NCBI GenBank assembly: GCA_022448985.1
Contig: JAKVCR010000016.1
Location: 62,001 to 126,000, forward strand
DNA length: 64,000 bases
Source: Roseibacillus sp.
Lineage (GTDB): Bacteria; Verrucomicrobiota; Verrucomicrobiia; Verrucomicrobiales; Akkermansiaceae
Direction: 5' to 3'
In this document: one piece after another, positions 32,847 to 37,730 of the stretch
Layout: each line of letters starts with the position of its first letter
How positions within the stretch are numbered: the first letter of the stretch is position 1
Made by a program: the position numbers and the translations under genes
The notes under the pieces: generated by a model
What the model saw: only the letters and a program-made list of their open reading frames with translations
What the model was told of the DNA's origin: nothing
Database searches by the model: none

Positions 32847-34535
32847 TTAACGCAGGAGGTTCCAGGCACTTACCAGCGCCTTGAGGCCTGCCATCTCGAT
32901 GGAAGGGTCGACTCCTGCGCCCCAGACCAGCCGTCCGTCCTCGTGCTTGAGCTGGACATAGGCTGCCGCATCGGAACTCGATCCATCCCGCAGAGCATGA
33001 GAACGATAGTCGGTGAGGACGAAATCCTTGTGGCCGTCCTCTTCGAGCGCGTGCACAAAGGCATTGATGGGGCCGTTGCCCAGTCCCACGATCTGACATT
33101 TCTCCCCGTTGAGAAGAACGTCCGCCCGGCACCGCACCGTTCCTCGCTCGCCCGTCTGCTGGTCGAGCTCGTAGTCAATCACATGCAGCGGCTCGCCCAC
33201 GTTGGCGAAATACTTGAAGAAGGCATCCTTCACCTCCGCGGGAGTGAGTTCCCGCCCCAGCTGATCGGCGAGGTCATAGGTTTTCTTCCCCACCTGGGGG
33301 TGCATGGTCTTGGGAACATCGAATCCGTATTCACGGTCGAGAATGTAGGCCACCCCTCCTTTTCCTGACTGGGAGTTAATCCGGATAATCGCCTCATAGC
33401 TGCGGCCGATGTCCTCCGGATCAATGGTCAGGTAGGGCACGCCCCACCTGGTCACTTCCCCGCCCTCCTCTGCCTCCTCCTTGCGACGCCGGTCAAAACC
33501 CTTCTTGATGGCATCCTGGTGGCTCCCCGAGAAGGCTGTGAACACCAGCTCCCCCGCGTAGGGCTGACGGTCGGGAACCTCCATCCGCGTGGTCCGCTCA
33601 TAAACCTCCCGGATCCGCGGCAGGTCGGTGAAGTCGAGCCCGGTTTCGATCCCGTGGCTGTTCATGTTCAGAGCCGCAATCACGATGTCCAGGTTTCCGG
33701 TCCGTTCGCCATTCCCAAAAAGGGTGCCCTCCACCCGGTCGGCTCCGGCCAGCAGACCCAGTTCGGTGGCTGCAATCCCGGTTCCCCGGTCGTTGTGGGT
33801 GTGTAACGAGACGTGCACACTCTCCCGATTCTTCACATTGCGGCAGAACCACTCGATCTGGTCCGCGTGAATGTTGGGGGTCGTCCACTCCACGGTCGCG
33901 GGGAGGTTGAGGATAGCCGGCTTCTCCGGGGTGGGCTCCCATACATCCATGACCGCCTCGCAAACCTCCAACGCATACTCAAGCTCGGTGTCGGAGAACG
34001 ACTCCGGTGAATACTCGAGATCGATGTTGGTGTCCGGAACGCTGGGAATCAATTCCTTCACTATTCTTGCGCCATCAACCGCAATCTTCCTGATGTCCTC
34101 ACGACTGGCATCGCTGAAGGTGACCCGCCGCTGGAGAGGCGAGGTGGAATTGTACATGTGCACGATGGCATTCTTCACCCCGTCAAGCGCCTCAAAAGTG
34201 CGGCGGATCAGATGCTCACGGGCCTGCACCAGCACCTGCACCTGCACCTCATCGGGAATGCGTTTATCCTCCACCAGGCGACGCAGGAAATTGAACTCGG
34301 TATCGGAAGCCGAGGGGAACCCGACCTCAATCTGCCTGAACCCTACTCCCACGAGGAGCTCGAACATTTCCAGCTTCTCTTCCACGCTCATGGGGACGGG
34401 CAGGGCCTGGTTCCCATCCCGGAGATCAACCGAACACCAGATGGGCGCCCTGGTGATCGCACGGTCCGGCCATTGCCGATCCGTAAGGCCGACCTCGGGG
34501 AAGGGTCGATACTTTCGGATATTCTGGGTGTTCAT
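32847..34535 (-). CDS. leuA: 2-isopropylmalate synthase (long form)
   Basis: MNTQNIRKYRPFPEVGLTDRQWPDRAITRAPIWCSVDLRDGNQALPVPMSVEEKLEMF; C-terminal LeuA allosteric domain. Confidence 0.95.
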   Translation of the reverse strand: MNTQNIRKYRPFPEVGLTDRQWPDRAITRAPIWCSVDLRDGNQALPVPMSVEEKLEMFELLVGVGFRQIEVGFPSASDTEFNFLRRLVEDKRIPDEVQVQVLVQAREHLIRRTFEALDGVKNAIVHMYNSTSPLQRRVTFSDASREDIRKIAVDGARIVKELIPSVPDTNIDLEYSPESFSDTELEYALEVCEAVMDVWEPTPEKPAILNLPATVEWTTPNIHADQIEWFCRNVKNRESVHVSLHTHNDRGTGIAATELGLLAGADRVEGTLFGNGERTGNLDIVIAALNMNSHGIETGLDFTDLPRIREVYERTTRMEVPDRQPYAGELVFTAFSGSHQDAIKKGFDRRRKEEAEEGGEVTRWGVPYLTIDPEDIGRSYEAIIRINSQSGKGGVAYILDREYGFDVPKTMHPQVGKKTYDLADQLGRELTPAEVKDAFFKYFANVGEPLHVIDYELDQQTGERGTVRCRADVLLNGEKCQIVGLGNGPINAFVHALEEDGHKDFVLTDYRSHALRDGSSSDAAAYVQLKHEDGRLVWGAGVDPSIEMAGLKALVSAWNLLR

Positions 34536-34592
34536 GGTTCGGTTCGTTGGTGTTGATCTTTTGTCAGGGCCTTGGCAAGCGCATTGGGCATA

Positions 34593-34701
34593 GTCCACCC
34601 CGAAACCCGGGAAACAGAAGTTGGACCAATACACATATGAACCCGGACTAGCGTCCGAGTCGCAGCACGAGAAGAAGAAGCGCCGTGGTCCAATTGCTCA
34701 T
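34593..34701 (-). promoter_or_regulatory. candidate leuA attenuator/leader RNA
   Basis: Leu-rich leader ORF plus 8-bp inverted repeat 34621-34628/34686-34693 competing with downstream hairpin 34593-34597/34622-34626. Confidence 0.55.
34648..34701 (-). CDS. candidate leu leader peptide MSNWTTALLLLVLRLGR (not in ORF track)
   Basis: direct translation: 17 codons, 6 Leu including CTT CTT CTT CTC, stop TAG, upstream of leuA on the same strand. Confidence 0.6.
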   Translation of the reverse strand: MSNWTTALLLLVLRLGR

Positions 34702-34854
34702 GGGTGGCACAACTCGCACGAGGCGAGCGCCCTGTCGAGGGAAAAGGATTACCCCCTTCCGCCGCCTCCCAAGGTGCCTGGAGGATCAAATTTCCCTTAG
34801 AGAATCCCGAAAACTCCCGCTTTCATTGCCTGTCGCCTTGCCGAACGGTCCGCC

Positions 34855-35694
34855 ATGCCCTTGCGTAAGGCCCTCCCCCGCCTTTTGCTCATGAATGATC
34901 CCGCTCGTCGTCGCACCTCGGACCTCATCAGGGATTGCCAACGCGTGCTGGTAGCCTTCTCTGGCGGAATCGACAGCACGCTCGTCCTCCGACTCGCCTA
35001 TCAGGAACTGGGTCAAAACGCGGTGGCCGTCACCGCGGTCTCGCCAAGCCTGGCCCGCAGCGACCTGGAAGCATCCCAGGACATCGCGCGTGAAATCGGA
35101 GCGACCCATGAACTGATCACGAGCAGTGAAACCGAGGATCCCCGCTACCAACGCAACGACCCCCAACGCTGCTACTTCTGCAAGAGCAACGTCTACCAAT
35201 CCCTTATCGACTACGCCGGCCGGGAGGGCTTCCCCTGGATCCTCGACGGCACTAACGCCGACGATCTCGGGGATCACCGGCCCGGCCTGCGGGCTGCCCG
35301 GGAACACGGTGTCCGTAGCCCCCTCCAGGAAGCTGGCATCGGAAAAGAGGCCATCCGGACCTGGGCCCGTGAGCTGGGCCTCTCTAACTGGAACCGCCCC
35401 GCCAATGCCTGCCTTTCTTCCCGGGTTCCCTACGGATCGGAGGTCACTCCCGAGAAACTGGCCCAGATCGAACAGGCCGAGGCCGCACTGCGCAAGCTGG
35501 GTTTCCGCGAGCTGCGAGTCCGCCATCACGACCAGGTCGCCCGCATTGAGGTGGGCAGGGACGAGCTCCCCCGGGCGGTAGAGCACGGCGAACACATCAT
35601 CTCCGCCATGAAGAAAGCAGGGTTTCCCTATGCGACCCTCGACCTCGCCGGATTCCGTTCCGGCAGTATGAATGACACCCTCAGGAAGAAATGA
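34855..35694 (+). CDS. larE: ATP-dependent sacrificial sulfur transferase LarE (possible start 34891)
   Basis: VLVAFSGGIDSTLVLRLAYQ, CYFCKSNVYQSL, ILDGTNADDLGDHRPG, NACLSSRVPYG. Confidence 0.92.
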   Translation: MPLRKALPRLLLMNDPARRRTSDLIRDCQRVLVAFSGGIDSTLVLRLAYQELGQNAVAVTAVSPSLARSDLEASQDIAREIGATHELITSSETEDPRYQRNDPQRCYFCKSNVYQSLIDYAGREGFPWILDGTNADDLGDHRPGLRAAREHGVRSPLQEAGIGKEAIRTWARELGLSNWNRPANACLSSRVPYGSEVTPEKLAQIEQAEAALRKLGFRELRVRHHDQVARIEVGRDELPRAVEHGEHIISAMKKAGFPYATLDLAGFRSGSMNDTLRKK

Positions 35695-36449
35695 GCCCCG
35701 AGCGCATTGAGAAACTGCTCAAGCAGGTTGCTGCCGGGGAGGTTTCCACTACAGAAGCCCTCGACAAACTGCGGGATCTGCCCTTCAGCGAGCTCGCTCA
35801 TACCACCCTCGATACCCACCGCGAACTACGCCAAGGCACTCCCGAGGTCGTCTATGGTGCAGGCAAGAGCGTGGAGCAACTGGTGGAGATTCTCGACCGG
35901 ATCTTCCAGTCCCACCAGCGCGCCCTCGCTACCCGGGTCAATCGGCGCAAGGCCCGCGCAGTGCAGGAGGCCCTGCCGGAAGCCAATTACAACAGCCTCT
36001 CCCGCCTTCTCACCCTCGGGGACCGCCCCGAGGCCCCGGCCCAGCCCTATGCGGTGGTGGCCTGTGCGGGCACTTCCGATCTTTCCGTGGCCGAGGAAGC
36101 CTCCCAGACCCTTGAGTTCCTCGGTCACCGCGTGGAGCGCCTCACAGACGTCGGCGTGGCCGGCCTTCATCGCCTGTTCGACAAGCTGGAGAAACTCCGC
36201 GGAGCACGCGTAATCCTCAGTGTGGCGGGGATGGAGGGCGCTCTCACCAGTGTAATCGGCGGGCTGGTAGCCTGCCCGGTCATCGGTATTCCCACCAGCG
36301 TGGGATACGGGGTCTCGCGGGGCGGGGAAACCGCCCTGCACGCCATGTTGTCCTCCTGCGCCTCCGGGGTGGCGGTGGTCAACATCGACAACGGGTTCGG
36401 GGCCGCCATGGTCGCCCGCGCAATCATGCGGACCGACCCCTCCGAGTGA
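35691..36449 (+). CDS. larB: nickel pincer cofactor biosynthesis protein LarB
   Basis: PEVVYGAGKSVEQLVEIL, AGTSDLSVAEEA, GMEGALTSVIGGLVACPVIGIPTSVGYG; overlaps larE by 4 nt. Confidence 0.93.
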   Translation: MSPERIEKLLKQVAAGEVSTTEALDKLRDLPFSELAHTTLDTHRELRQGTPEVVYGAGKSVEQLVEILDRIFQSHQRALATRVNRRKARAVQEALPEANYNSLSRLLTLGDRPEAPAQPYAVVACAGTSDLSVAEEASQTLEFLGHRVERLTDVGVAGLHRLFDKLEKLRGARVILSVAGMEGALTSVIGGLVACPVIGIPTSVGYGVSRGGETALHAMLSSCASGVAVVNIDNGFGAAMVARAIMRTDPSE

Positions 36450-36503
36450 GGGTGGACCGGGTTGAGGCTTTCCTTCCCCTCCATTCCCCGTTCCAATCGG
36501 TCC

Positions 36504-37730
36504 ATGCGCACGGCCTACTTCGACTGTATCGCGGGAGCGAGCGGGGATATGCTGCTGGGAGCTCTGGTGGATGCCGGGCTGCCCGCCCCCCGGCTGGAGA
36601 CAGAGCTCGCCAAGCTCCACCTCAAGGACTTCCACCTCCACATCGGTCGCGTCTCAAAGAATGCCTTCAGCGCCGTCAAGGTGGATGTCCATGTCCACGA
36701 CGACGCCCCGGAGCGCCATCTTGCCGACATCCGCAAGGTGGTGGAGGACAGCGATCTCTCTGATCATGTGAAGGAACGCGCGATCCGCATCTTCACCCGC
36801 ATCTGCGAGGCAGAGGCGGCAATCCATGATTCCACGGTCGACAAGGTCCACCTCCACGAAGTGGGCGGGGTCGATGCCATCGTTGATGTCTGCGGCACCC
36901 TTGCCGGTCTGGAAGCTCTCGGGATTGAACAGGTCCAGGTTTCGCCCTTTCCCCTGGGCCGCGGGTTCGTGACAGGAGCCCACGGCCAGATTCCCCTGCC
37001 AGCCCCCGCCGCCCTCGCCCTCATGAAAGGCTGTCCGGTTGCAGGCACCCGCATTGATGCCGAACTGGTCACCCCCACCGGGGCCGCCATTCTCTCGGAA
37101 GTGGCTGACAGCTTCGGGCCCATTCCCGCCCTGGCCCTCGATGCGATCGGATACGGCGCAGGCAGCAACGATCTCGAGATCCCCAACGTCCTGCGTCTCA
37201 TCCTCGGGGATGCGATGGGCACCTCTGGACTCCTCACCGAGACCCTCATACAACTGGAAACCAACCTCGACGATGAATCGCCGGAACTCGTGGGCCACCT
37301 CGCGGGCCACCTGATGGAAACTGGGGCGCTCGACGTTTCCGTCATTCCGGCCCAGATGAAAAAGGGCCGCCCCGGAGTCCTGCTCCAGGTCCTCGCCAAG
37401 CCCCAGCATGCTGATGCGCTTGAGCATCTCCTCTTCCACGAGAGTTCCACCCTCGGGGTGCGCCGCCAGGAAGTCCAACGGGACTCCCTTCCCCGCCGGA
37501 GCGAGGCCCTCGACACCAAGTTTGGCAAGATCCGGGTCAAGATCGCCACTCTTCCGGGAGGGCAGTCCCGCGTCACCCCGGAGTACGACGACTGCCGGGA
37601 GGCTGCCGGCAAGAGCGGAACCCCGCTCCGGGAAATTTACGATCAGGTCAGACATGAAGCTGCCCACGCCCTGAATCTCCCTCACTCCCACGGGCATGAT
37701 CCTTCCCATGATCACGACCATCACCACTAG
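36504..37730 (+). CDS. larC: nickel insertion protein LarC, His-rich C-terminus
   Basis: TAYFDCIAGASGDMLLGALVDAG, HLHEVGGVDAIVDVCG, LETNLDDESPELVGHL; tail HSHGHDPSHDHDHHH. Confidence 0.93.
   Translation: MRTAYFDCIAGASGDMLLGALVDAGLPAPRLETELAKLHLKDFHLHIGRVSKNAFSAVKVDVHVHDDAPERHLADIRKVVEDSDLSDHVKERAIRIFTRICEAEAAIHDSTVDKVHLHEVGGVDAIVDVCGTLAGLEALGIEQVQVSPFPLGRGFVTGAHGQIPLPAPAALALMKGCPVAGTRIDAELVTPTGAAILSEVADSFGPIPALALDAIGYGAGSNDLEIPNVLRLILGDAMGTSGLLTETLIQLETNLDDESPELVGHLAGHLMETGALDVSVIPAQMKKGRPGVLLQVLAKPQHADALEHLLFHESSTLGVRRQEVQRDSLPRRSEALDTKFGKIRVKIATLPGGQSRVTPEYDDCREAAGKSGTPLREIYDQVRHEAAHALNLPHSHGHDPSHDHDHHH

Follow-up and report, generated by a model that had tools for sequence, protein, structure and literature searches.

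Does the short leucine-rich open reading frame (ORF) that precedes leuA in Roseibacillus encode a leader peptide whose translation controls the gene, or is it an accident of the spacer sequence? The stretch of 64,000 nucleotides analysed here (the window), which comes from a marine, Roseibacillus-like bacterium of the family Akkermansiaceae (Verrucomicrobiales), encodes a long-type 2-isopropylmalate synthase of 562 amino acids, as judged from its NCBIfam match, and a 17-codon ORF on the same strand lies between -166 and -112 relative to the leuA ATG at 34535. Read on the minus strand, this ORF has exactly the coordinates given in the preliminary description of the locus. The features discussed below are collected in Table 1. 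A larE-larB-larC nickel-pincer cofactor set is divergent from leuA and lies about 150 nt from the leader start.

Table 1. Positions of leuA, the leader and the putative regulatory elements in the window
Feature	Position	Strand	Basis or remark
-35-like element TCGACA, leader promoter (inferred)	34733..34738	-	Kept in most genus relatives
Weak extended -10-like element TGCGAGTTG (inferred)	34710..34718	-	Genus pattern CGTGnRAnTn
Leader ORF MSNWTTALLLLVLRLGR followed by stop, 17 codons	34648..34701	-	ATG at 34701, TAG stop ending at 34648
P1 5' strand TTGGACCA, codons 3-6	34686..34693	-	Swap test, fold
Small hairpin CGGCGC/GTGCTG, Leu codons 8-11 in loop	34663..34685	-	Predicted fold
Conserved core Leu-Arg-Leu, CTG CGA CTC	34657..34665	-	Codon comparison across leaders
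P2 hairpin GACTCGGAC-GCTA-GTCCGGGTT, holds leader stop codon	34640..34661	-	Predicted fold, column counts
H4 5' strand GTGTATTGG, helix competing with P1	34626..34634	-	Fold, column counts
P1 3' strand TGGTCCAA	34621..34628	-	Swap test, fold
Inner hairpin TCCCG/CGGGG of competing structure	34598..34612	-	91% of genus cells paired, both-side changes at 2/5 pairs
TGGAC, GTCCA partner in the hairpin first proposed; poorly conserved	34593..34597	-	60% of genus cells paired
H4 3' strand CCAATGCGC	34579..34587	-	Fold, column counts
leuA, 2-isopropylmalate synthase, regulated gene	32847..34535	-	NCBIfam NF002991 and TIGR00970
larE-larB-larC	34855-37730	+	NCBIfam TIGR00268, NF033503, TIGR00299/NF052512

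The run of four leucine codons that first drew attention to the ORF is present in the window but not in the closest relatives (upstream regions L031, MSNWTTASTLPVLRLGR, and L032, MNNWTTAPALHVLRLGR), where the leaders have three leucine codons only and the ending VLRLGR followed by the stop codon is retained. Judged from this comparison, the conserved part of the leader is the C-terminal Leu-Arg-Leu rather than the four-leucine run.

The regions upstream of leuA were sampled across the order Verrucomicrobiales (79 loci, later 142 non-redundant) for ORFs of 9-45 codons that end 190 to 55 nt before leuA and contain at least five leucines in their last 12 codons. Such an ORF is found in 50 of the 79 regions, with about 1.1 expected from Markov shuffles, and in 72 of the 142. 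The ilvB (0/24), trpE (1/25) and hisG (0/26) regions of relatives, which serve as negative controls, give one in 75 combined. No clear leader is present in about half of the sampled leuA upstream regions of the order. Absence of conservation in relatives was one of the outcomes that would have refuted the preliminary description, and both the leader ORF and the first helix (P1, see below) do recur there. The leaders have clade-specific ends, with VLRLGR before the stop codon in the genus of the window, GLRLGL in a second clade, ELVLLG in a third and LLLGLASR in a fourth, and the stop codon itself may be TAG, TAA or TGA. CUA accounts for 9% of leucine codons in leaders and 4% in leuA. The first leucine of the core uses all six codons (CTT, CTG, CTA, TTG, CTC and TTA) and the distance from the ATG to the core varies by multiples of three, which together argue that the ORF is translated. 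Two genomes of the sample (G002 and G008) have two leuA copies each, on separate contigs and 86-88% and 81-85% identical to the query, and two upstream regions were read in each (L035/L036 and L040/L068); duplication or bin contamination may account for this. Long-type leuA is missing from a number of compact, complete genomes in genus g3 of the family (G016, G062, G071 and others).

A wider search, using a phylum sample and a family sample, yielded leaders in Opitutaceae such as MRNNAQALRLI followed by stop, in which CTN CGA CTT A is nearly invariant. Their architecture comprises a near-leaderless ORF with Leu-Arg-Leu, a hairpin (P2) that coincides with or closely follows the ORF end, and a long helix (P1). 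In general, P1 joins codons on the 5' side of the core to RNA that lies past P2; in Opitutaceae these are CAGGCN codons just before the core, which pair with NGCCTG beyond the long hairpin. Cognate P1 strands pair better than swapped ones, and none of 500 permutations reaches the observed value. P2 with its inner stem is paired in 96.5% of cells and shows both-side changes at 6 of 15 pairs (0/500 shuffles). The Infernal covariance model built from this group (R1) finds one strong match (E ≤ 1e-11) in 34 of 51 Opitutaceae genomes, many of the 34 being outside the model-building set. All strong matches lie directly before leuA, 60-310 nt upstream of its coordinates, and the next-best match in any of the 51 genomes has an E-value of 1.8e-4. 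In a subgroup of the Opitutaceae sample (L303-L308) CTN CGA CTT A is kept but P2 differs (GACAGCC..GGCTGTC, with GGGACGC after it), and the leaders end in a second leucine run (..DSLLLA before the stop codon).

The order of parts in the window is the same as in Opitutaceae, with P1 enclosing the leucine codons, the Leu-Arg-Leu core and P2 with its stop codon. The segment carrying the leader, P1 and P2 is predicted to fold better than its dinucleotide shuffles (z-score -3.15, 2/200). Inside it, a pairing of the GCAC/GTGC type, similar to that in the small hairpin around Leu codons 8-11, is seen in most genus relatives. P1 is the pairing TTGGACCA:TGGTCCAA already pointed out in the preliminary description, at the same positions, and it recurs in relatives. 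Equivalents in the genus of the window and the sister clade are ATTTGGGCCA:TGGTCCAGAT (L033), AATTGGACCAAGG:CTTTGGTCCAGTT (L043), GAACTGG:CCAGTTC (L044), AGTTGGCC:GGCCAACT (L188) and TGGCTC:GAGCCA (L061, L069). Exhaustive column-pair covariation scans within clades gave no separation from a column-shuffled null and were replaced by alignment-free partner-swap tests. When Roseibacillus-type and related leaders are pooled, no swap in 500 matches the cognate P1 pairing; within the genus of the window the figure is 55/500, which is weak, partly because of register shifts. Column covariation of P1 and P2 in the genus also shows no excess over shuffles. The support for P1 is thus, in these comparisons, derived from pooling clades. 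The third clade (L052-L095, for example L066 and L074) forms another helix, AGCACC:GGTGCT, which surrounds the leucine codons within the leader ORF, and the stop codon of this clade swaps between TGA and TAG within a GGGC..GCCC hairpin. By comparison, the leucine leader of Roseibacillus is genuine and has a related form across the class.

A second helix, H4, competes with P1. The alternative hairpin proposed earlier, with GTCCA/TGGAC as its outer helix, is favoured by the folding energy of the window itself and its TGGAC is at the given position, but that outer helix is paired in only 60% of genus cells. A better conserved competitor in the genus is GUGUAUUGG:CCAAUGCGC. When the P1 5' strand is left out, the RNA after the stop codon of the closest relatives folds as GUGUGUUGG:CCAAUGCGC around UUC:GAA and CCCCG:CGGGG in L031-L033, L035 and L036, and the equivalent helix in L039 and L042 is GUAUUGG:CCGAUAC. 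This competing helix is paired in 77% of cells with a covariation score reached by 17 of 500 shuffles, which is modest support. P1 and H4 are mutually exclusive because the 5' strand of H4 overlaps the 3' strand of P1. With this overlap and the P1 swap tests (0/500 in Opitutaceae and in the pooled set), the idea of mutually exclusive helices at the leucine leader holds. In L048-L073 and L089 a long helix, GCUGUG..CUUUGG:CAAAG..CACAGC (CGCGG:CCGCG in L057), extends from the RNA after the stop codon to 60-75 nt before leuA and covaries visibly.

A strict sigma-70 scan of the window returned no site, and the leader promoter was not called in this way. Weaker elements are nevertheless recognizable at a consistent place. 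Nearly all Opitutaceae leaders have TTGACT or TTGACA about 40 nt ahead of the leader ATG, and other clades have GTGACA, TGGACA or TCGACA at a similar place; the -35-like elements overall lie about 30-45 nt before the leader start. From the position of the -10-like element, the transcript would begin no more than a few nucleotides upstream of the leader ATG, and the leader mRNA would therefore be near-leaderless.

These observations make it very likely, as far as sequence comparison can indicate, that the region is a cis-acting, ribosome-mediated attenuator of leuA. They support a translated leader selected for leucine, the helices P1 and P2, the exclusion of P1 and H4 by overlap and the specificity for leuA; recurrence and swap tests thereby uphold the central proposal of the preliminary description, a Leu-codon leader with exclusive helices upstream of leuA. 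At high leucine the ribosome would read the leader through to its stop codon, P1 and P2 would form and the strand needed for H4 would be locked away, leaving leuA expression low. At low leucine the ribosome would pause at the leader leucine codons, where we infer stalling by uncharged tRNA-Leu as well as the polarity of the switch and its output step. From ribosome geometry, a pause at codons 8-11 would cover the P1 5' strand and free the P1 3' strand (TGGTCC) for H4, turning leuA on. Were the ribosome to wait at codon 13 or 15, P1 would be uncovered and P2 opened, and the leucine run and the core may therefore act differently in the species of the window. In Opitutaceae, where the core immediately follows the P1 strand, a pause at either leucine codon would cover that strand.

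The competing structures could act on transcription or on translation of leuA, two choices of output step within the attenuator explanation. A terminator scan of the window found no U-run terminator, in agreement with the preliminary description, which had taken transcriptional and translational control to be equally likely. U-run hairpins are likewise at background in the genus of the window (1/17 versus 1.2 expected) and in the sister clade (1/18 versus 2.0). Terminator-like U-run hairpins follow the leader in 13 of 19 sequences of one related clade (3.3 expected) and 16 of 22 of another (5.8 expected), and are found in 15 of 32 Opitutaceae sequences (8.5 expected). In one related clade CGGGnGAAUUGCGUCCCG and a U-run form an intrinsic terminator that competes with CCAAC-UUC..CCCG:CGGG..GAA-UUG. 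Since the leaders of other Verrucomicrobiales clades are followed by U-run terminators, transcriptional control appears to be the likelier ancestral form, although the clade of the window is without a recognizable terminator. In the other clades the off state would probably end in an intrinsic terminator; in the genus of the window the output may be Rho-dependent or translational.

Transcription attenuation through an atypical or Rho-dependent terminator, derived from the U-run attenuators of related clades, is in our judgement evenly poised. The terminators of related clades overlap the competing helix (as in L066, where CGGG-TGAATTGCGT-CCCG is followed by a U-run), a hairpin GGCGAAC..GUUUGCC after the stop codon is possible in several genus relatives (for example L037 and L082) and the leuA 5' region past the hairpin is C/A-rich and G-poor. 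Sixteen of the 17 genus-level sequences are, however, without a U-run, and Rho sites are unreliable to recognize from sequence. Control of translation, in which the competing structures alter ribosome access to leuA and not transcription, would suit a window without a terminator and was given equal favour in the preliminary description. It seems unlikely to us: the structured part contains nothing like a Shine-Dalgarno site for the leuA start, no sequestered Shine-Dalgarno site was seen at leuA in the genus of the window, and about 44 nt separate the end of H4 from the leuA ATG.

The attenuator reading leaves the strict codon usage of the core to be considered. In-frame Leu-Arg-Leu occurs as 64 triplets in short upstream ORFs of all loci, 59 of them with CGA; the five others sit in ORFs judged non-leader by position or composition, one CGA row at least (L072) likewise falls outside the leader, and the sequences cannot be counted as independent. 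In leuA of the same genomes, CGA makes up 5-9% of arginine codons. The second core leucine is CUY, and in Opitutaceae cores it is CTT throughout, versus about 5% of leucine codons in Opitutaceae leuA. Set against the free choice among six codons at the first leucine, this pattern means, on codon comparison, that the first core position is under selection for leucine, which implies translation, and that CGA-CUY is maintained as codons or as nucleotides. Retention of CGACTTA through pairing with downstream RNA was considered and rejected, as there is no excess complementarity (4.91 nt, with 4.93 nt in shuffled sequences). That a single codon pair underlies a leucine sensor shared by the whole class is a speculative idea that we rate as rather doubtful: an almost invariant CGA, decoded through inosine wobble and occupying the P site, followed by CUY in the A site would confer hypersensitivity to leucine, so that two leucine codons suffice where other attenuators use runs. 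By analogy it is made plausible by precedents, the reading of CGA by eubacterial tRNA-Arg(ICG) (PMC10454642) and the inhibitory CGA-CGA codon pairs of yeast (PMC6301793). The same codon bias and lack of a downstream complement to CGACTTA would also fit an arrest peptide, in which Leu-Arg-Leu with fixed CGA-CUY would halt the ribosome through its nascent chain or its codon pair, with leucine tuning the effect. This is improbable given that leaders of other clades (those ending in ELVLLG and LLLGLASR) have no Leu-Arg-Leu and that the motif is lost in some genus relatives (L037-L042 and L082, for example SPLGR and PQLGR). That the ORF is a chance, non-regulatory Leu-rich ORF in an unconstrained spacer is very improbable, since, although the anatomy of a single sequence could arise randomly and genus-only covariation is weak, it is already contradicted by conservation, in particular by recurrence across the class, the negative control genes, the swap tests and the single leuA-linked model matches.

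Most descriptions of leader-peptide attenuation concern Proteobacteria, Actinobacteria and some Firmicutes. According to a survey from 2010, none was known outside Proteobacteria and Actinobacteria before its own find in Firmicutes (PMC2965389). We found no paper on a leader-peptide attenuator of Verrucomicrobiota in the open-access literature. If true, a leuA attenuator spread across the class would be a first mechanism of leucine response for these bacteria, which abound in the sea, in soil and in the gut, and would offer an independent case in which to ask how switches of this kind arise. A fixed CGA-CUY beside a leucine free to use six codons is unusual and raises the question of whether codon pairing, beyond codon number, sets the sensitivity of an attenuator.

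The enterobacterial leuL leader places leucine codons before leuA together with mutually exclusive helices, the first segment of which lies inside the leader. The Roseibacillus region resembles it in all of these respects and differs in its near-leaderless leader, in the hairpin at the end of the ORF being enclosed by P1 and in the absence of a U-run from the window. A short regulatory ORF before a branched-chain amino acid gene is also shared with the ilvBNC leader-peptide attenuator of Corynebacterium, (PMC11857589, PMC10272879) and with the Leu-rich attenuator peptide of Staphylococcus aureus (PMC5794164); the genes and phyla are different, and the Verrucomicrobiota ilvB regions examined have no such leader. 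In the Actinobacterial LEU element a base stem joins the run of leucine codons to the Shine-Dalgarno box of leuA, and helices form a pseudoknot (PMC1262725). On inspection, the 30 nt before leuA in the window contain no purine-rich complement of the leucine run (CTTCTTCTTCTC), leuA here has no evident Shine-Dalgarno box, and the predicted folds of the window use helices other than a LEU base stem. The Rfam covariance models, including that of the Leu operon leader, gave no relevant match at any of the thresholds applied. The resemblance to previously described leu attenuators put forward in the preliminary description is therefore functional, and extends neither to an Rfam match nor to a visible counterpart of the LEU base stem. 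Like the LEU element (PMC1262725), the region combines a leader with a leucine run before leuA, candidate alternative structures and no obvious terminator; unlike it, P1 pairs codons upstream of the leucine run, and P1 and P2 are nested.
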